This document shows positions 31,390 through 63,779 of a stretch of DNA of 64,000 nucleotides, in pieces. The stretch's first letter is position 1. The number at the start of each line of letters is the position of its first letter. A program made the translations under genes and the position numbers. Source of the stretch: Halorientalis sp. (lineage in GTDB: Archaea > Halobacteriota > Halobacteria > Halobacteriales > Haloarculaceae); the NCBI RefSeq assembly GCF_028275115.1, contig NZ_JAQCNH010000027.1, forward strand, positions 1 through 64,000, read 5' to 3'. The notes beneath the pieces were generated by a model that saw only the letters and a list, made by a program, of their open reading frames with translations, made no database searches and had not been told where the DNA came from.

Positions 31390-31398
31390 TTTTATATA
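31390..31398 (+). promoter_or_regulatory. TATA box of leuA
   Basis: TTTTATATA (31390-31398) lies about 29-36 bp before ATG 31427. That is the spacing expected for a leaderless haloarchaeal transcript, so transcription should start at or very near this ATG. This matters because the ATG is out of frame with the LeuA body (see leuA). Confidence 0.6.
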
Positions 31399-31418
31399 TC
31401 ATACGTGGGTTGCATGAA

Positions 31419-32648
31419 TTGCTACAATGTCCAACGATACAGAGGGCACGTCGGAATCCCCGGCGGATCGAGTTCTTCCAGGGCACACTGGATTCCACTT
31501 CTGAGATAACAGAAGCACGCATTTTCGACACCACGCTGCGCGACGGTGAACAGTCGCCACGCACGTCGTTCTCGTACGACGACAAACGCGAGCTAGCGGC
31601 CGTGCTGGACGACATGGGCACCCACGTCATCGAGGCAGGGTTCCCCGTCAACTCGGACGCGGAGTTCGAGGCCGTACGCGACATCGCCGAGTCCGCACAG
31701 AACAGTGAAGTCTGTGGACTCGCGCGCGTGGTCGACAAGGATATCGAGGCTGCACTCGACAGTGGCGTCGACCTGGTGCACGTGTTCGTGTCCACCAGCG
31801 ACGTCCAGTTGCAAGACTCCATGCACGCCACTCAAGCGGAGGCCAAACAAGCCGCCGTCGAGAGCGTCGAGCGTGTCACGGAGGCCGGCGTCGAGTGTAT
31901 GTTCTCGCCGATGGACGCCACGCGGACCGACGAGTCCTTCCTGATCGAGGTCGTCCAAGCTGCCGATGCGGCCGGCGCCGACTGGGTGAACATTCCGGAC
32001 ACCTGCGGCGTGGCCACACCCCGGCGGTTCTACGACATGGTCGAGAAGGTCGTCGATGCGATTGACGCGCGCGTGGACGTTCACACACACGACGACTTCG
32101 GGCTGGCAGCGGCGAACGCCCTGTCCGGCTTCGAAGCTGGCGCGAGCCAGTCGCAGGTGTCGGTCAACGGCATCGGTGAGCGGGCGGGCAACGCGGCCTA
32201 CGAAGAGGTCGTGATGGCCCTTGAGAGTCTCTACGACGTGGAGACCCACATCGACACGACCCGCATCACCGAGCTGTCGCGGCTCGTCGAGGACCGGTCG
32301 TCGATCCCGGTTCCGGCGAACAAGCCGGTCGTCGGCGAGAATGCCTTCTCTCACGAGAGTGGCATCCACGCCGCGGGCGTCATCGAGAACTCGGACACGT
32401 TCGAGCCAGGCGTGATGACGCCGGAGATGGTCGGGGCCGAGCGCGAGCTCGTCCTCGGGAAACACACCGGCCAGCACTCCGTCCGGGAGCGGTTGGTCGA
32501 TGCCGGGTTCGACCCCACGGAGGAGGAGGTGCGTGAGGTCACCCGTCGAGTCAAGGACTACGGCGCCGAAAAAAAGCGGGTCACGATGGACGTACTGGAG
32601 AAGTTCGCTCGCGAGGTCGGTGTCTCCGAGGAGGAGGTTCGGGTCTAA
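31419..32648 (+). CDS. leuA: 2-isopropylmalate synthase, short form
   Basis: LeuA condenses acetyl-CoA and 2-oxoisovalerate, the first step of leucine synthesis. Motifs: FDTTLRDGEQSP at the N terminus, HTHDDFGLAAANAL (metal ligands), NGIGERAGN, and ENAFSHESGIHAAGV. The body of about 395 residues lacks the C-terminal regulatory (LeuA dimer) domain of bacterial enzymes. No ATG or GTG in this frame lies between the TATA box and the conserved IEFFQGTLDS; the start given is TTG. The well-placed ATG at 31427 reads MSNDTEGTSESPADR in another frame, and losing one C from the CCCC run near 31470 would join it to LeuA. A frameshift at the 5' end is therefore likely. Confidence 0.85.
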   Translation: MLQCPTIQRARRNPRRIEFFQGTLDSTSEITEARIFDTTLRDGEQSPRTSFSYDDKRELAAVLDDMGTHVIEAGFPVNSDAEFEAVRDIAESAQNSEVCGLARVVDKDIEAALDSGVDLVHVFVSTSDVQLQDSMHATQAEAKQAAVESVERVTEAGVECMFSPMDATRTDESFLIEVVQAADAAGADWVNIPDTCGVATPRRFYDMVEKVVDAIDARVDVHTHDDFGLAAANALSGFEAGASQSQVSVNGIGERAGNAAYEEVVMALESLYDVETHIDTTRITELSRLVEDRSSIPVPANKPVVGENAFSHESGIHAAGVIENSDTFEPGVMTPEMVGAERELVLGKHTGQHSVRERLVDAGFDPTEEEVREVTRRVKDYGAEKKRVTMDVLEKFAREVGVSEEEVRV

Positions 32649-32713
32649 AATGGACTCCTCTCGGGGTGTTCGCGCCCATCAGCAACCGGTGAAGAACGTC
32701 ACGACTCGGAAGA

Positions 32714-32722
32714 ATTATATTA
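32714..32722 (+). promoter_or_regulatory. TATA box of the ilvB leader transcript
   Basis: ATTATATTA at 32714-32722 is centred about 29 bp before ATG 32747. The transcript should therefore begin at or just before the leader-peptide start codon, about 185 bases ahead of ilvB, leaving a long mRNA leader that contains the leader peptide, a hairpin and a second mini-ORF. Confidence 0.6.
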
Positions 32723-32746
32723 TTGGGCAGACCTACTCAGCACACG

Positions 32747-32830
32747 ATGACCGCGCGAGCTGGACCCGGAAGCGTCCTGGCGCCCAGCAGTGCGCTCGTT
32801 ATTCTCGCGGGTATCGTAGGGGCCGTATAG
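32747..32830 (+). CDS. Candidate branched-chain amino-acid leader peptide
   Basis: A 27-codon ORF, apparently leaderless, starting MTARAGPGSVLAPSS and ending ALVILAGIVGAV. Seven of its last 12 residues are Ile, Leu or Val, the products of the operon it precedes. Its last codons and stop lie inside the 8-bp hairpin at 32816-32837, so a ribosome finishing translation would open that hairpin. It resembles the bacterial ilv leader peptides in logic, not in sequence. Such control is not known to me in haloarchaea. Translation is inferred, not shown. Confidence 0.55.
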   Translation: MTARAGPGSVLAPSSALVILAGIVGAV

Positions 32831-32837
32831 CCCCTAC
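32816..32837 (+). promoter_or_regulatory. GC-rich hairpin at the end of the ilv leader peptide
   Basis: GTAGGGGC (32816-32823) pairs perfectly with GCCCCTAC (32830-32837) around a 6-base loop that contains the leader's last codons. The leader stop TAG (32828-32830) is at its 3' shoulder. No strong U-run follows, so a simple intrinsic terminator is unlikely; a pause, an RNA-binding site or ribosome-dependent switching are alternatives. Confidence 0.6.
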
Positions 32838-32892
32838 ACATGCTTTCACCCCGAATTCTGCAGCACAGTCGGTAGCGGCCGGGAGGCGACAG

Positions 32893-32934
32893 ATGCACAC
32901 GACCACTCACACCACGATGGAGGAATCGACATGA
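32893..32934 (+). CDS. His/Thr-rich mini-ORF coupled to ilvB
   Basis: A 13-codon ORF, MHTTTHTTMEEST, preceded by a clear Shine-Dalgarno GGGAGG at 32881-32886. Its TGA overlaps the ilvB ATG by four bases (ATGA), so ilvB translation may depend on it. Six of 13 codons are Thr; threonine is the precursor of isoleucine. A GGAGGA inside it (32919-32924) is placed to serve ilvB as well. It may be a second leader peptide or just a coupling device. Confidence 0.45.
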   Translation: MHTTTHTTMEEST

Positions 32935-34724
32935 GCGATAGCGCACAGACACCACACACGGACGAAGTCGAGACGGAGGCAACGGACAGACAACCCGACG
33001 AACCGGAGAGCGAGAGCCACGTCGAACCGGTCGAGACGGGGGCAGACGCGGTCGTCGCGGCGCTGAAAAACGCCGATGTTGACCATCTGTTTGGCGTGCA
33101 GGGCGGAGCGATCATGCCCGTCTACGACGCGCTGTACAGCGAGTCGGATATGACGCACGTGACGATGGCTCACGAGCAGGGGGCGGTCCACGCCGCCGAC
33201 GCCTACGGAATCGTCACGGGCGACCCCGGCGTCTGCATGGCAACCTCGGGGCCGGGTGCGACCAACCTGGTCACCGGCATCGCGGACGCCAGCATGGACT
33301 CTGACCCGCTGATCGCGCTGACGGGACAGGTGCCGACGGACCTGGTCGGTAACGACGCCTTCCAGGAGACCGACACCATCGGCGTCACACAGCCGATAAC
33401 CAAGTACAACCGCTTTGCGTCCCACGCCGACGAGGTGGGCGACGACGTGGCCACGGCCTTCGCGCTGGCCGACGAGGGTCGCCAAGGGCCGACGCTGGTC
33501 GACCTGCCCAAGGACGTGACCCAGCCCGAGACCGACGTGGAACCGGGCAGGCCGGAGACGCCGGACACGTACAACCCGCCGGAGAAAGCCGATGAAGACG
33601 CCGTCGACGAGGCGGCCGACGTGATTTCGGCTGCGGAGAAGCCGGTCATCCTGGCTGGCGGTGGCGTCATCAAGGCCAACGCCAGCGACGAGTTGCGGGC
33701 GTTCGCGAAGGAACACGAGATTCCGGTGCTGGCGACGATGCCAGGTACCGGCGCCTTCGACCAGACCCACGAGCTGTCGATGGGTATCGCTGGCATGCAC
33801 GGCACCGGCTACGCGAACATGGCGATCACGCTGACCGACTGCATGCTCGCAGTCGGAACGCGCTTCGACGACCGGCTGACCGGCGACGTGGAGACGTTCG
33901 CGCCGGATGCGGACATCGTCCACGTCGACATCGACCCGGCCGAGGTCAGCAAGAACGTCGAGGCCGACTACCCGCTGCTGGGCGACGCCAAAGCGGTCGT
34001 CGACCAGTTGGGCAACGCGATGACGGACTCGCCGGAAGCCGACCTGTGGCGCGAGCAGTGCCAGACCTGGAAAGACGAGTACCCGCTGGACTACGAGATG
34101 CCCGAGGACCGGCCGCTCAAACCCCAGTACATCGTCGAGCAGTTCGACGAGACCATGCCCGACGACACAATCGTCACGGCCGGTGTCGGCCAGCACCAGA
34201 TGTGGGCCTGGCAGTACTGGACCTGGACGGAACCTCGGACGTGGGTCACCTCTCACGGCCTGGGGACGATGGGCTACGGCTTCCCCGCGGCTATCGGCGC
34301 GAAACTCGCCGCCCCCGACAAGGAGGTCATCGCCTTCGAGGGCGACGGTTCCTTCCTGATGACGAGTCAGGAACTGTCCGTGGCGGTGCGGGAGAACCTC
34401 GACATCACCATCGTTATTCTGAACAACGAGGCGGTCGGGATGGTCCGGCAGTGGCAGGACGGCTTCTACGAGGGCCGCCGGATGGCCTCGGAGTACCCGT
34501 GGGTGCCGGAGTTCGACAAACTCGCGGAGGCCTACGGCGCACGGGGCTTCCGGCTGGAGGACTACGACGAGGTCGACGACGTCATCGAGGCTGCGCTAAC
34601 ATACGACGGGCCGGCGGTCGTCGACGCCATCATCGACCCCGAAGAGAACGTGTACCCGATGGTGCCGAGCGGCGGTGACAACAGTCTGTTCGCACTCTCG
34701 GAAGCCGATCTGGACGAAATCTAA
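32931..34724 (+). CDS. ilvB: Acetolactate synthase, large catalytic subunit
   Basis: A 597-residue ThDP enzyme that joins two pyruvates (or pyruvate and 2-oxobutyrate) at the head of valine/leucine/isoleucine synthesis. After an acidic N-terminal extension (about 40 residues) come LFGVQGGAIMPVYD, HEQGAVHAADAYG with the ThDP-activating Glu, and the ThDP-Mg motif GDGSFLMTSQEL...NN near residue 470. Haloarchaeal proteins often carry the extension. It works with the IlvN subunit two bases downstream and is expressed behind the candidate leader system. Confidence 0.97.
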   Translation: MSDSAQTPHTDEVETEATDRQPDEPESESHVEPVETGADAVVAALKNADVDHLFGVQGGAIMPVYDALYSESDMTHVTMAHEQGAVHAADAYGIVTGDPGVCMATSGPGATNLVTGIADASMDSDPLIALTGQVPTDLVGNDAFQETDTIGVTQPITKYNRFASHADEVGDDVATAFALADEGRQGPTLVDLPKDVTQPETDVEPGRPETPDTYNPPEKADEDAVDEAADVISAAEKPVILAGGGVIKANASDELRAFAKEHEIPVLATMPGTGAFDQTHELSMGIAGMHGTGYANMAITLTDCMLAVGTRFDDRLTGDVETFAPDADIVHVDIDPAEVSKNVEADYPLLGDAKAVVDQLGNAMTDSPEADLWREQCQTWKDEYPLDYEMPEDRPLKPQYIVEQFDETMPDDTIVTAGVGQHQMWAWQYWTWTEPRTWVTSHGLGTMGYGFPAAIGAKLAAPDKEVIAFEGDGSFLMTSQELSVAVRENLDITIVILNNEAVGMVRQWQDGFYEGRRMASEYPWVPEFDKLAEAYGARGFRLEDYDEVDDVIEAALTYDGPAVVDAIIDPEENVYPMVPSGGDNSLFALSEADLDEI

Positions 34725-34726
34725 CG

Positions 34727-35374
34727 ATGACAGGGAAACTACCAGGGCCGGGCCCAGGCGAACGGATGCGCCCCGAGGGCCGGCGTAACGAGGACGGTAT
34801 TCGTATCGACCCCGAAGCCGAAGCGAAACACGAACCGCGCCGTGCGGTGCTGTCGGCGCTGGTCGAACACCAGCCGGGCGTGCTGGCGGAGGTCTCCGGC
34901 CTGTTCAGCCGTCGGCAGTTCAACATCGAGAGTCTCACTGTCGGGACGATCGTCAACGAGCGTCGGGCGCGCATGACTATCGTCATCGAGGAAACGCGAC
35001 CCGGAATTCAGCAGGCAAAAAAGCAGCTGCGGAAACTGGTTCCCGTCGTCTCGGTGCGTGAGCTGGCTCAGGATTCGGTCCAGCGCGAGCTGGTGATCGT
35101 GAAAGTCAACGGCGAGGAACCTGACAAAGTCCACGCCATTACGGAGATGTACGGCGGCGAAACGCTGGACGCGGGCCCCCGGACGATCACCGTCGAGATC
35201 ACCGGGAACGAGCAGCAGGTCGACGACGCCATCGACGCGTACGAGCAGTTCGGCATTCGCGAGATCGTCCGGACCGGCTACGCGTCGCTCTCCCGTGGCG
35301 AACAGCAGACTGCGGCGGTCGAGCACGACACGAACGTGACAGCAGACACGGAGGTGCCAGCAGACGATGACTGA
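34727..35374 (+). CDS. ilvN: Acetolactate synthase, small regulatory subunit
   Basis: A 215-residue regulatory partner of IlvB. An ACT domain (about 38-110) shows [20 protein letters not shown] and FNIESLTVG, the valine-binding signature of the family, followed by the second ACT-like half and an acidic tail. It should give end-product inhibition and raise IlvB activity. It starts two bases after ilvB and overlaps ilvC by eight, so the three are one operon. Confidence 0.95.
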
Positions 35375-36368
35375 CGAGTTTACCAATGAAATCTACTACG
35401 ACGAGGACGCAGACGTGTCGAACATCGAGGACAAGACCGTGGCCGTGCTGGGCTACGGTAGTCAGGGCCACGCCCACGCGCTGAACCTGCAGGACAGCGG
35501 CGTGGACGTGGTCGTCGGTCTCCAGAAGAGTTCCGCGTCGCGCGAGGCCGCCGAAGACGAAGGGCTGGCGGTTACGACGCCGGTCGACGCCGCGTCCCGA
35601 AGTGACATTGTGACCCTGCTCGTTCCCGACACCGTACAGCCCACGGTCTACGAGCAGATCCGCGACGAACTCGACGCCGGCGACACCCTCCAGTTCGCCC
35701 ACGGGTTCAACATCCACTACGGCCAGATCGAACCGCCGGCGGACGTGGACGTGACGATGATCGCCCCCAAATCGCCCGGCCACCTCGTTCGCCGCAACTA
35801 CACGAAAGACGAGGGGACGCCCGGACTGCTGGCCGTCTATCAGGACGCCACTGGCGAGGCCAAGGACGAAGCACTGGCCTACGCGAAGGCTATCGGCTGT
35901 ACGCGCGCTGGCACAATCGAGACCACCTTCCGAGAGGAGACCGAAACTGACCTGTTCGGCGAGCAGGCCGTCCTCTGTGGCGGCGTGACCGACCTCGTGA
36001 AGGCCGGGTTCGAGACGCTGGTCGACGCGGGCTACTCCCCGGAGATGGCCTACTTCGAGTGTCTGAACGAGATGAAGTTGATCGTCGATCTGATGTACGA
36101 GGGCGGCAACATGGAGATGTGGAACTCCGTCTCCGACACCGCCGAGTACGGCGGGCTGACCCGTGGCGAGGCGGTTATCGACCGCGAGGGGATGGAAGAG
36201 ATTCTCGAGAGCGTCCAGAACGGCGAGTTCGCCCGCGAGTGGATTTCGGAGAATCAGGCCCACCGGCCGGCCTACAAGCAGTACCGACAGGCCGAACAGG
36301 ACCACCAGATCGAGGAGGTCGGCGAACGCCTGCGCGACCTCTTCGCCTGGGGAGCGGAACAGGAATGA
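35367..36368 (+). CDS. ilvC: Ketol-acid reductoisomerase, class I
   Basis: A 333-residue enzyme that isomerises and reduces acetolactate using NAD(P)H. The Rossmann motif [17 protein letters not shown] lies near residue 30, and the knotted C-terminal domain has [16 protein letters not shown] and [19 protein letters not shown], which hold the Mg-ligand Asp and Glu. Length matches class I KARI. The start overlaps ilvN; the stop overlaps the next mini-ORF (ATGA). Confidence 0.96.
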
Positions 36369-36481: not shown

Positions 36482-36564
36482 GTTCCGATAGACATTCCTG
36501 CTCGCTGCGCTTCGCGGGCTGTGACTATCGACCTCATGCTCAATCACGAGGTGATTTCGCATGA
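36478..36564 (+). CDS. Second mini-ORF before leuC
   Basis: A 28-codon [23 protein letters not shown] at its start, that overlaps the previous mini-ORF stop (ATGA at 36478-36481) and the leuC start (ATGA at 36561-36564). Such double overlap suits translational re-initiation through the gap to leuC. The peptide itself is Cys- and Arg-rich and unlike neighbours, so the coding product may not matter. Confidence 0.35.
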
Positions 36565-37982
36565 GCGAAGCAACTCTGTACGACAAGGTCTGGGACAGGC
36601 ACAAAGTTACGACGTTGCCCAACGGGCAGGATCAGCTGTTCGTGGGCCTGCACCTCATCCACGAGGTCACGAGCCCGCAGGCTTTCGGGATGCTCCAGGA
36701 ACGCGACCTGGACGTCGCCCGACCTGACCTGACGCTGGCGACCGTTGACCACATCGTCCCGACGGCCGACCAGTCCCGGCCGTACAACGACGACGCGGCC
36801 GAGGAGATGATGTCGGAACTGGAGGAAAACGTCCGTGACGCGGGAATCGAGTTCCTCTCGCCCGAGACCGGTGAGCAGGGCATCGTCCACGTCATCGGTC
36901 CGGAGCAGGGGCTGACCCAGCCCGGCAAGACCATCGTCTGTGGCGACAGCCACACCTCCACTCACGGTGCGTTCGGCGCGCTGGCGTTCGGAATCGGCAC
37001 CAGCCAGATTCGGGACGTGTTGGCGACCCAGACCATCGCGATGGAGAAACAGAAGGTCCGGAAGATTCAGGTCGACGGCCAACTCGGCGAGGGCGTCGAG
37101 GCCAAGGACATCATCCTGGAGATCATTCGTCGCCTCGGCACCGAGGGTGGCGTCGGCTACGTCTACGAGTACGCCGGCGAGGCCATCGAGGACCTGGGCA
37201 TGGAAGGTCGGATGTCCATCTGTAACATGTCCATCGAGGGCGGCGCTCGCGCGGGCTACGTCAACCCCGACGCGACCACCTACGAGTGGCTGGAGCAGAC
37301 CGATTACTTCCAGGACCAATCGGAGACGTTCGGGGAACTGAAGCCGTACTGGGACTCCATCCGCAGCGACGAGGACGCCGAGTACGACGACGTGGTCCAC
37401 ATCGACGCCGACGAACTCGAACCCGTCGTCACCTGGGGCACCACACCCGGTCAAGGCGTTGGCATCACGGACCCGATCCCGGCTCCGGAAGAGCTATCAC
37501 CGGAAAAACAGGATACCGCTCGGCGCGCACAGGAACACATGCGCGTCGAACCCGGCGACACGATGGAAGGGTACGATATCGACGTGGCTTTCCTGGGCTC
37601 GTGTACGAACGCCCGACTGCCCGACCTGCGCCGCGCAGCGAAGATCGTTGAGGGCCGTCAGGTCCCCGACGACGTGCGGGCGTTCGTCGTGCCCGGCAGT
37701 CAGCGCGTGCAGAAAACGGCCGAGGCAGCGGGCCTTCGTGACATCTTCGAGGACGCGGGCTTCGACTGGCGCAACGCAGGCTGTTCGATGTGTCTGGGGA
37801 TGAACGAGGACCAACTGGAGGGTGACGAGGCGTGTGCCTCCTCCTCGAATCGAAACTTCATCGGCCGGCAGGGGTCGAAGGACGGCCGGACGGTCCTGAT
37901 GAATCCACAGATGGTCGCCGCGGCGGCGGTCAACGGCGAGGTCACAGACGTTCGGAAACTGGAGGAGGTGGTGTCGGTATGA
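36561..37982 (+). CDS. leuC: 3-isopropylmalate dehydratase, large subunit
   Basis: A 473-residue aconitase-family enzyme that isomerises 2- to 3-isopropylmalate with LeuD. The 4Fe-4S ligands appear as the Cys in [12 protein letters not shown] (near residue 345) and the CxxC in [11 protein letters not shown] (near residue 410). [20 protein letters not shown] near 130 is the family substrate loop. Length is normal. It overlaps leuD by four bases. Confidence 0.96.
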
Positions 37983-38593
37983 GCCGCGAGAACGAGGTCG
38001 AGATTCCGGAGGTAAAGAAGGCGTCGGGCTCCGGTATCCCGATCCGCGGAAACGACATCGACACGGACCAGATCATCCCGGCGCGGTTCATGAAGGTCGT
38101 CACGTTCGACGGTCTCGGGGAGTTCTCCTTTTTCGACCTGCGTTTCGACGAGGACGACAACGAGAAAGAACACCCGATGAACGAGGACCGGTTTCAGGAC
38201 GCGAACGTGATGATCACCAATGCGAACTTCGGGTGTGGCTCCTCCCGGGAACACGCGCCACAGGCACTAATGCGCTGGGGGATCGACGCGTTCATCGGCG
38301 AGTCCTTCGCCGAGATTTTCGCTGGCAACTGCCTGGCGCTGGGTATGCCGACCGTGACGGCCGACCAGGAGACCGTCGAGGAGTTGCAGGACTTCGCCGA
38401 CGCGAACCCCGATGCCGAGATCGACATCGACGTGGCCGGCCAGACGGTCACGTACGACGGGAAGACGGTCGACGTGACCGTCGACGAGGGTCAGCGGAAG
38501 GCACTGGTCGACGGTATCTGGGACACGACGGCGCTGATGAAGTCCAACCAGCAGTCGATCTCGGAGGCGGCCGAGAGTCTGCCCTACGTCTGA
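37979..38593 (+). CDS. leuD: 3-isopropylmalate dehydratase, small subunit
   Basis: The swivel-domain partner of LeuC, 204 residues. [20 protein letters not shown] near the N terminus and [15 protein letters not shown] near residue 80 are the family motifs. It starts at ATGA overlapping the leuC stop, so both subunits are made in step. Length is within the usual 160-210 range. Confidence 0.95.
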
Positions 38594-38715: not shown

Positions 38716-39696
38716 ATGACACATCGGATTGCAGTCATCCCCGGGGATGGAATCGGCGGCGAAGTCGTGCCGGCAGCCGTCGAAGTCCTCGAAGCCCTCG
38801 AACTGGGCCTCGAGTTCGTCGAAGGCGAGGCGGGCGACTACGTACAACAAGAGCGTGGCGACGCGCTCCCACAGGAGACGTACGACCTCGCGGCAGAGGC
38901 CGACGCGACGCTGTTCGGCGCGGCGGGCGAGACCGCTGCCGACGTGATTCTCCCGCTCCGTGAGGCGGTCGGCTCGTTCGCCAACGTCCGTCCGGCCCGT
39001 GCGTACCCGGGCGTGGACGCGGTCAAGCCCGAGACGGATATCGTGTTCGTCCGGGAGAACACCGAAGGGGTCTACGCCGGCATCGAGGACGACCTGACCG
39101 ACGACGTAACCACGCTCACACGGGTGATAACCGGGTCGGCATCGCGACGGATCGCGGAGTACGGCTTCGAGTACGCCGAGGAGAACGGCTTCTCCGACGT
39201 GACGGTCGCTCACAAGGCGAACGTCATGCGGAAGACCGACGGCCGGTTCCTGTCGGCCTGTGAGGCGGTCGCGTCTGAAGAGGAGTACGAGTACGACGAG
39301 GCGCTGATGGACGCCCTGGCGATGCACCTGATACTGCACCCGGAGGAGTACGGGGTCGTCATCTGTCCGAACCTCGCTGGGGACATGCTCTCTGACCTCG
39401 CGGCCGGTCTCGTCGGCGGTCTCGGGCTGCTCCCGAGCGCGAACGTCGGGCCGGACAACGCGCTGTTCGAACCGGTCCACGGCTCGGCGCCGGACATCGC
39501 GGGTGAGGGAGTCGCGAACCCGACGGCGACGCTCCTGAGTGCGGCGATGCTGCTCGACCATCTGGAGTTCGAGGACGAGGCAGCGCGCGTCCGGGACGCG
39601 GTTACGACCGTTCTGGCGGACGGCCCGCAAACGCCGGACCTGGGCGGCAACGGGACGACCGGCGACGTGACCGAGGCGGTGCTGGACGCACTGTAG
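38716..39696 (+). CDS. leuB: 3-isopropylmalate dehydrogenase
   Basis: A 326-residue NAD-dependent beta-decarboxylating dehydrogenase. [28 protein letters not shown] and [17 protein letters not shown] (Lys/Asp ligands) are in family order, then a C-terminal [13 protein letters not shown]. It lies 122 bp after leuD, so it may have its own promoter. The enzyme completes the leucine branch. Confidence 0.93.
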
Positions 39697-40699: not shown

Positions 40700-41428
40700 T
40701 CACACCGCGTCCAGGTCGACCGACTCGTCGCCATCGAGGACGTGAACGTCGGCGTCACTGTCCGTCGCTGCCACTTCGTCGACGAAGCGATCGGTGTCGA
40801 TTTCGATTGGTGGGAAGGTGTCGTAGTGCATCGGGAAGACGTGGTCTACGTCGAGCCAGTCGGTTGCGACGGCGGCCTGCATCGGTCCCATTGTGAAGTG
40901 GTCGCCGACCGGAACCGCCGCGGCGTCGGGTTCGAGGTACGGGGCGATGACCTCGCGCATCTCGGTCATCAGGCCGGTGTCGCCGGCGTGGTAGAACGTC
41001 GTCGCGTCCTCGCCGGCCACCTGTGTCGGCACGGCGTCGCTGATGATGTACCCGGCACAGTTACCGCCGCTCGGGGAGACGAAGCCTTCGCCCATGCCGT
41101 TCGTGTGGTCGGCGCGGTGCATCGTCACGTGCGCGTCGCCGAACTCGACGGTCCCACCGAGGTTGAAGCCAACCACGTCGTCCTCAGCGAAGTCGTGTTC
41201 ACCCGAGAGGTGGCCGACGACTTCGGGCGTCCCGCCGAGGGTGGCGTCGGTGTACTCGCCCACGTCCGCGACGTGGTCGTCGTGACCGTGTGTCACGAGC
41301 ACCACGTCCGGGTCGAGGTCGGCAGCGTCCGTGTCGGTCTTCGGGTTGCCGAAGAACGGGTCGATCAGGATGTCGGTGTCGTCGACCGAAACGCTCCAAG
41401 TCGCGTGACCGTACCAGGTGAGTTCCAT
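40700..41428 (-). CDS. Metal-dependent hydrolase, MBL fold (UPF0173-like)
   Basis: A 242-residue MBL-fold hydrolase. [13 protein letters not shown] opens the family fold, [12 protein letters not shown] holds the HxHxDH zinc motif (near residue 47), FYHAGDTG the Asp ligand, and [10 protein letters not shown] the last His. The UPF0173 group is widespread and its physiological substrate is unresolved. The start at 41428 gives the canonical N terminus. Confidence 0.9.
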
Positions 41429-63601: not shown

Positions 63602-63779
63602 TGGGGTCGGAGAGATTTGAACTCCCGATCGACTGATATCTCCGGTCGCGCCTCGGAACCCCAGAGGGTCATCAGCGCGGACGGTGATCAGCCGTCCGCT
63701 CAGTATATCAGTCTGGAGTTTCGTCACCGGGCGCGGTGCCTCTGGAGTCAGTCGCCATGCCGGACTTGGCCACGACCCC
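63602..63779 (-). tRNA. tRNA-Trp (CCA) with a 104-nt box C/D intron
   Basis: Exon 1 (63742-63779, 38 nt) and exon 2 (63602-63637, 36 nt) fold as a cloverleaf with acceptor stem GGGGTCG/CGACCCC and anticodon CCA; 3' CCA is not encoded. The intron (63638-63741) sits after position 37, the common site, and carries C (GTGACGA), D' (CTGA), C' (CTGATGA) and a D-like CCGA box. The guide before D' (GACTGATAT) pairs with exon 2 and places U39 at the fifth base; the guide before CCGA (CTGGGGT) pairs with the anticodon loop and places C34 at the fifth base. This matches the intron-guided Cm34/Um39 methylation known in Haloferax volcanii pre-tRNA-Trp. Confidence 0.95.
63638..63741 (-). ncRNA. Box C/D guide RNA within the tRNA-Trp intron
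   Basis: Box positions on the minus strand: C 63721-63727, D' 63700-63703, C' 63669-63675 and D-like CCGA 63653-63656. The D'-C' spacer forms a hairpin GCGGACGG/CCGTCCGC. Both guides obey the base-five rule for Cm34 and Um39 of the same tRNA. After splicing the intron would act as a free guide RNP; whether it acts before or after splicing is not shown by the sequence. Confidence 0.85.

Follow-up and report, generated by a model that had tools for sequence, protein, structure and literature searches.

The window, by which we mean the whole 64-kb stretch of DNA that was analysed, carries a run of branched-chain amino acid biosynthesis genes from ilvB to leuB on its forward strand (Table 1), which are probably co-transcribed as ilvBNC-leuCDB. 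The ilvB gene is preceded by a leader region that contains a TATA box, a short leaderless open reading frame (ORF) and two hairpins, P1 and P2, and leuA, identified by a strong NCBIfam match that stayed below the cut-off, lies directly upstream of this leader. In the window, the leader ORF ends in IVGAV, and 7 nt separate the Shine-Dalgarno-like GGAGG from the ATG of ilvB. The GTA codon that encodes the Val of this ending is rare, as it accounts for 4 of the 170 Val codons in five operon genes.

Table 1. Features of the ilvB leader region and of the neighbouring genes in the window.
Feature	Position	Strand	Basis
TATA box of leader transcript, AATTATATTA	32713..32722	+	sequence and relatives
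Leaderless leader ORF, 27 codons, MTARAGPGSVLAPSSALVILAGIVGAV-stop	32747..32830	+	ATG at 32747; frame kept in relatives
Upstream hairpin P1 within leader ORF	32752..32794	+	fold and covariation in relatives
Ile-Val codons ATC GTA, proposed sensing codons	32813..32818	+	Ile codon kept in ilvB leaders
Hairpin P2, GTAGGGGC-CGTATA-GCCCCTAC	32816..32837	+	perfect 8-bp stem
Stop codon TAG, spanning loop and 3' arm of P2	32828..32830	+	sequence
Post-P2 tract with short T-run (TTTC at 32844-32847)	32838..32852	+	sequence and relatives
Shine-Dalgarno-like GGAGG 5' of ilvB	32919..32923	+	sequence
ilvB, acetolactate synthase large subunit	32931..34724	+	TIGR00118 over cut-off
ilvN, acetolactate synthase small subunit	34727..35374	+	TIGR00119 over cut-off
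ilvC, ketol-acid reductoisomerase	35367..36368	+	TIGR00465 over cut-off
leuC	36561..37982	+	TIGR00170 over cut-off
leuD	37979..38593	+	TIGR00171 over cut-off
leuB (best match LEU3_arch)	38716..39696	+	TIGR02088, E 2.6e-111, below cut-off

The initial annotation had described a TATA box pointing to a leaderless 27-codon ORF whose end and stop codon lie inside a perfect 8-bp hairpin, and the window sequence agreed with this description base for base. Its statement that no strong terminator follows the hairpin was borne out by a simple terminator scan of 32600-33000, which returned a single weak site at 32779-32796, inside the leader ORF, and none at P2; there is no U-run 3' of P2 in the window. 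The pattern GTAGGGGCN6GCCCC, a palindrome and thus read on both strands at once, occurs with 0-1 mismatch at one place in the 64 kb, against a mean of 0.08 in shuffled sequence. The 41-nt P2 region and the first 100 nt of the ilvB leader folded better than their shuffled versions (z -2.7 and -2.2, respectively), while the entire 188 nt up to ilvB (z 0.15) and the 66 nt 5' of P2, which hold the P1 piece alone (z 0.03), folded no better. A comparison of 32600-33000 with Rfam gave no match to a T-box, riboswitch or other RNA family up to an E-value of 5, and the absence of such a match ruled out a described RNA family as the identity of the ilvB leader.

The leader was then compared across the class. 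With tblastn, 159 records containing ilvB were collected, some of them representing the same place twice; 80 loci were taken from named haloarchaeal genomes and further loci from other genomes of the class. Two records were too short upstream (L024 and L172), and among the 157 with enough upstream DNA three lacked the motif (L147, L167 and L171). The 154 motif-bearing records were reduced to 137 distinct sequences, which are related, so that binomial and Fisher values computed on them overstate independence, and 32 of which had been fetched by the element's own covariance model; as the motif search demands GTAGGG, the invariance of these letters is partly by construction. When the model-fetched loci were left out, the leader element was found 5' of ilvB in 104 of 107 usable haloarchaeal loci, namely in 79/79 from the named genomes and in 25/28 from a second set, the genomes of which had been picked for absent or weak covariance-model matches. 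Inspection of the three motif-less loci by hand showed a leader that has diverged, at a GGGCC/GGCCC hairpin, in L147, a leader of a different kind in L167, and no ilvB leader in L171.

At E<=0.01, the covariance model, built from 59 sequences, finds matches in 351 of the class's 391 genomes, 22 of which have more than one. The genome that contains the window is matched at this ilvB leader only, the next best site having an E-value of 9.9. A search of 120 genomes of the phylum gave 12 matches, all of which fall in the order to which the window belongs; there was no covariance-model match in the 13 listed genomes that lie outside this order, and 88 further match-free genomes are counted without being itemised.

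An incidental ATG would be expected to stand in any frame with respect to the hairpin. An ATG located 36-100 nt upstream of the motif and open into it was present in frame 0 in 133 of the 137 sequences, in frame 1 in 12, and in frame 2 in none. The four sequences without an in-frame ATG in this range have an in-frame GTG (three sequences) or an in-frame ATG at 108 nt (one sequence). A TATA-like box was found 20-38 nt 5' of an ATG in 116 of the 137 relatives, and the ATG with the best TATA box was in frame in 114/116 or, without the model-chosen loci, in 87.5/89 (ties shared in both counts). The distance from the in-frame ATG to the Ile codon took 17 different values from 48 to 99 nt; these refer to in-frame ATGs only and are multiples of three by construction, the frame test being the all-frame count given above. 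The leader ORF thus varies freely in length and keeps its frame. The conservation of the ORF and of its frame argues for a short leader ORF before the structural gene, which is probably translated. A chance origin of the ilvB leader was ruled out by the frame statistics together with the class-wide occurrence.

In the relatives, the leader ORF ends in Ile-Val-Gly followed by Ala or Val, at the GTAGGGG...CCCC hairpin. The codon before GTA encodes Ile in 135 of the 137 distinct ilvB leaders (ATT in 99, ATC in 36), so that its wobble base varies while the residue stays Ile; one of the two exceptions has a Leu codon and the other a Val codon. The codons kept at the putative sensing position are those for Ile and Val, not for Leu. 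The leader ORF had been described as rich in Ile, Leu and Val, which holds for its end but not for its start: in the relatives, these residues make up 347 of 1056 in the last eight positions before IVG and 126 of 1056 in the first eight after Met.

The frame and the Ile codon are kept, whereas the interior shows no codon-position bias, with 90, 84 and 74 changes at the three codon positions among 32 independent same-length pairs (p 0.45). Since the changes in the interior are spread evenly over the three codon positions, the peptide itself is not kept, as would be expected for an attenuator-like leader in which the frame and the end codons alone matter. On the same ground, we rejected the idea that the leader ORF is the source of a functional small protein. 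The frame and the C-terminal IVGA are both conserved, as they would be in such a protein, but the unbiased interior, the varying length and the coincidence of the conserved end with the hairpin make it exceedingly improbable.

All 137 distinct sequences can form a stem of 5 bp or more at the ORF end if G-U pairs are allowed, a count made without a shuffle control, and the inner 4-5 bp of P2 are symmetric in nearly all ilvB sequences. The stop codon begins in the P2 loop in 123/137 and after the hairpin in 14/137. Covariation of P2 was limited to one double change in each of two of the six pairs (59 sequences) because the arms hardly vary. One of these, a compensatory change to GGGCC/GGCCC, was seen at ilvB in L054, and the same change occurs at valS, the gene for valyl-tRNA synthetase, in L200. 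P1 appears better supported by covariation than P2: the double-changed cells numbered 32 against 14.7 ± 3.1 in shuffled alignments and 17 against 6.2 ± 2.1, the consensus structures having been derived from 23 and 25 relatives, that is, from the same sequences, with shuffles that keep relatedness in.

In the relatives, G makes up about 5% of the first 15 nt after P2 and T peaks at +11 to +15, and TTTC occurs within 45 nt after P2 in 68 of 137 sequences as compared to a shuffled mean of 26. A classical terminator, i.e., a GC hairpin with a U-run, was not found at the hairpin in the window, and the relatives show the TTTC enrichment only. The search for a mutually exclusive antiterminator yielded no clear candidate: the alternative pairings were weak and confined to one of the two alignments, with long-range pairing probabilities of up to about 0.4 in the set of 25 sequences. 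The distance from the hairpin to the ilvB match ranges from about 70 to 480 nt across the relatives. A second motif, CGNAYCG, was observed about 15-40 nt after P2 in 99 of 137 sequences (window region 32838-32900).

In the 22 genomes with more than one covariance-model match, there were 23 second matches, and all eight that were read (L136-L143) precede an ORF for a valyl-tRNA synthetase. An ilvB-type hairpin leader was present in 28 of 39 valS loci or, if model-chosen loci are set aside, in 20 of 31, the other 11 of these 31 having no GTAGGGG leader. Ile never stands directly before GTA in the valS leaders (0/28), and in 27/28 a Val was seen by eye one or two codons before it (V-V, V-F-V, V-R-V, V-G-V, V-L-V). 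In the genome from which the window comes, valS is preceded by a very short ORF, MGLMSSVVR.

Leaders were also found at other synthetase genes, selected by requiring FF or W in small ORFs. At pheS, small ORFs with FF near the end, e.g., GFGFFFAR, were present in 23 of 30 haloarchaeal loci (L203-L232) and absent in seven; in 14 of these 23 leaders the stop is enclosed by a perfect stem of 4 bp or more, with differing arms and counted without a shuffle control, and nine have no such stem. In one type of trpS, 15 of 16 loci (L233-L248) carry a Trp-bearing small ORF, 14 of them with WRW. For the other trpS type, with 14 loci, inspection by eye showed a Trp-rich TATA-linked leader in a single locus, that of the window's own genome (L256). 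No cognate-rich leader was found within 500 nt upstream of leuS (four loci, the leuS model having matched only 4 of 15 genomes) or ileS (15 loci), or within 1500 nt upstream of trpE (15 loci), and a rule for all synthetases and pathways was rejected for this reason. Where leaders occur, the codon set follows the gene, the codons being those for Ile and Val at ilvB, for Val at valS, for Phe at pheS and for Trp at one trpS type. The Phe-rich pheS leaders and the Trp-bearing trpS leaders merit study across synthetase and biosynthesis genes.

The palindrome GTAGGGGC-N6-GCCCCTAC could instead be an operator, bound by a protein that regulates both ilvB and valS, with the ORF being incidental. A near-invariant inverted repeat that is common to both genes and lies just downstream of the promoter would fit such a role. 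Against an operator stand the conserved frame of the ORF and the fact that pairing is maintained where bases differ, by G-U pairs or by a compensatory change. Moreover, TAC, the mirror of the outer GTA, occurs in 33/137 only, although GTA itself is kept (the GTA count being partly by construction), and at pheS and trpS the leaders bring cognate codons but not this palindrome. We therefore consider an operator very unlikely.

On the other hand, the near letter-for-letter constancy of GTAGGGG at ilvB and valS, as opposed to the varying arms at pheS, is not explained by a simple ribosome-sensor model and may point to something else that reads these letters as well. The leader could be translated and its hairpin or nascent peptide read by a dedicated trans-acting branched-chain factor, tRNA charging not being the direct signal. 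The identity of GTAGGGG at the two genes, including the rare GTA, exceeds the needs of a generic hairpin and would suit such a factor, as would the variation of the pheS arms, but a codon set that follows the gene is what direct charging predicts, and we judge a factor of this kind improbable.

The reading that we prefer, and consider probable, is that the leader is a cis-acting, translation-dependent Ile/Val sensor that lowers ilvB expression via the hairpin, likely by termination. The transcript would begin at the leader ATG or a few bases 5' of it, and a ribosome would translate the leaderless ORF. When Ile- or Val-tRNA is scarce, the ribosome would dwell on the Ile-Val codons, the rare GTA among them. 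The sensing codons abut the 5' arm of P2, and a ribosome paused on either of them should, given its size, cover this arm, while a finished ribosome should free it. The dwelling ribosome would block P2 and ilvBNC-leuCDB would be expressed; expression on scarcity follows if P2 is the off-signal. With ample Ile and Val, the ribosome would reach the stop codon in the P2 loop and depart, P2 would form, and downstream expression would fall. The sensor logic is well supported by the comparison, which shows a leader ORF held in frame, conserved codons within it, a hairpin, and codons that match the genes; stalling, the direction of regulation and the output we infer. The likeness to ribosome-dependent attenuation suggested in the initial annotation thus gains support from the frame, the Ile codon and the hairpin kept across haloarchaea. 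The ilvB leader appears to work like ribosome-mediated attenuation, and we do not class it as an attenuator of the classical type because a U-run terminator was looked for and not found.

The most likely output would be pausing and termination of RNA polymerase at P2 and the C/U-rich tract, perhaps with FttA/aCPSF1. In a reporter system of Haloferax volcanii, one hairpin is described to terminate 59% of the transcripts and a T-stretch ending in C 95% (PMC7237163), and FttA is described to prefer U-rich RNA (PMC11616081). Alternatively, the sensor could be the same and the output differ, so that the leader ribosome affects either how ilvB is translated, through re-initiation or access to its ribosome site, or how the mRNA decays at the hairpin. 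Such an output would be in line with the GGAGG ahead of ilvB and with the lack of a strong terminator, and a stop codon inside the hairpin could influence termination or recycling. However, the wide range of hairpin-to-ilvB distances disfavours direct pairing with the ilvB start, and TTTC is enriched after the hairpin; we regard an output by translation or decay as rather unlikely. Output by termination is favoured because the distance to ilvB varies widely and T-runs follow the hairpin.

Amino-acid sensing through leader translation is textbook knowledge in bacteria, where the enterobacterial ilv/ivbL, trp and phe attenuators combine a short leader ORF, cognate codons and a nearby hairpin in the control of biosynthesis and synthetase genes. 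These features are common to the haloarchaeal leaders, whereas the classical U-run terminator of the enterobacterial systems was not found at haloarchaeal ilvB, nor was a clear antiterminator. In the ilvB leader peptides of Actinobacteria (PMC1262725), branched-chain codons likewise overlap a hairpin upstream of ilvB, and some aminoacyl-tRNA synthetase genes (trpS, leuS) also have leaders. Candidate terminator hairpins with poly-U are reported there, in contrast to the haloarchaeal leader, which has no strong U-run, is archaeal and leaderless, and has a stop codon that usually begins in the loop. According to the same paper, codon changes at Streptomyces ilvB had no effect (PMC1262725).

For H. 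volcanii, mapped transcript starts give uORFs in the long 5'UTRs of pheS and of a Trp-tRNA ligase gene (PMC4983044), the same kinds of genes as those with Phe- and Trp-bearing leaders in the relatives. The portion of that report dealing with uORFs proposes neither attenuation nor cognate codons and gives no peptide sequences, and its uORF table is without ilvB and valS (PMC4983044). No description of archaeal leader-peptide attenuation was found in the literature searched, which did not extend to most subscription journals or to any preprints. If the preferred reading is true, archaeal transcription and translation would be linked closely enough for metabolic sensing, and the ilvB leader would offer a compact setting for studying coupling and termination in archaea that are amenable to genetics.

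The start of leuA (window 31390-31504) was also unusual. A TATA-linked ATG at 31427 opens MSNDTEGTSESPADRVLPGHTGFHF-stop, which is one base off the LeuA frame. Of 66 leuA loci, collected with a search that demanded GAGTT(C/T)TTC, 19 had too little upstream DNA. In the other 47, all distinct and with such an ATG visible, the frame was offset by the same step without exception, and in 29 of them the LeuA frame offers no ATG, GTG or TTG nearby. The loci have the site GAGTTCTTC in common, with the codons GTT CTT in the ATG frame, and CTT makes up 1 of the 134 Leu codons in the five operon genes. These observations make leuA a likely candidate for a programmed +1 frameshift, which is perhaps leucine-sensitive; leuA is not named in the sections of a frameshifting review that were drawn on (PMC5009743). 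Upstream of ilvB in L167, at about 1020-1120, a leuA-like ORF, MPHIEGTSVVPADRVLPRAA, replaces the usual leader, and its stop lies in a small hairpin.

A wider reading is that haloarchaea possess a general system of their own, equivalent to ribosome-mediated attenuation, of leaderless, cognate-coded leaders with a stop-codon hairpin at ilvB, valS, pheS and trpS, together with a conserved leuA +1 frameshift at a rare Leu codon; here we hold belief and doubt to be evenly balanced. If it is true, translation events would set branched-chain amino acid synthesis throughout the class.

Elsewhere in the window, ARAGORN lists a tRNA-Ala at 41232-41326 as its sole tRNA and thus passes over 63602-63779 on the minus strand, where Rfam gave a tRNA match of 178 nt, presumably containing a long intron.
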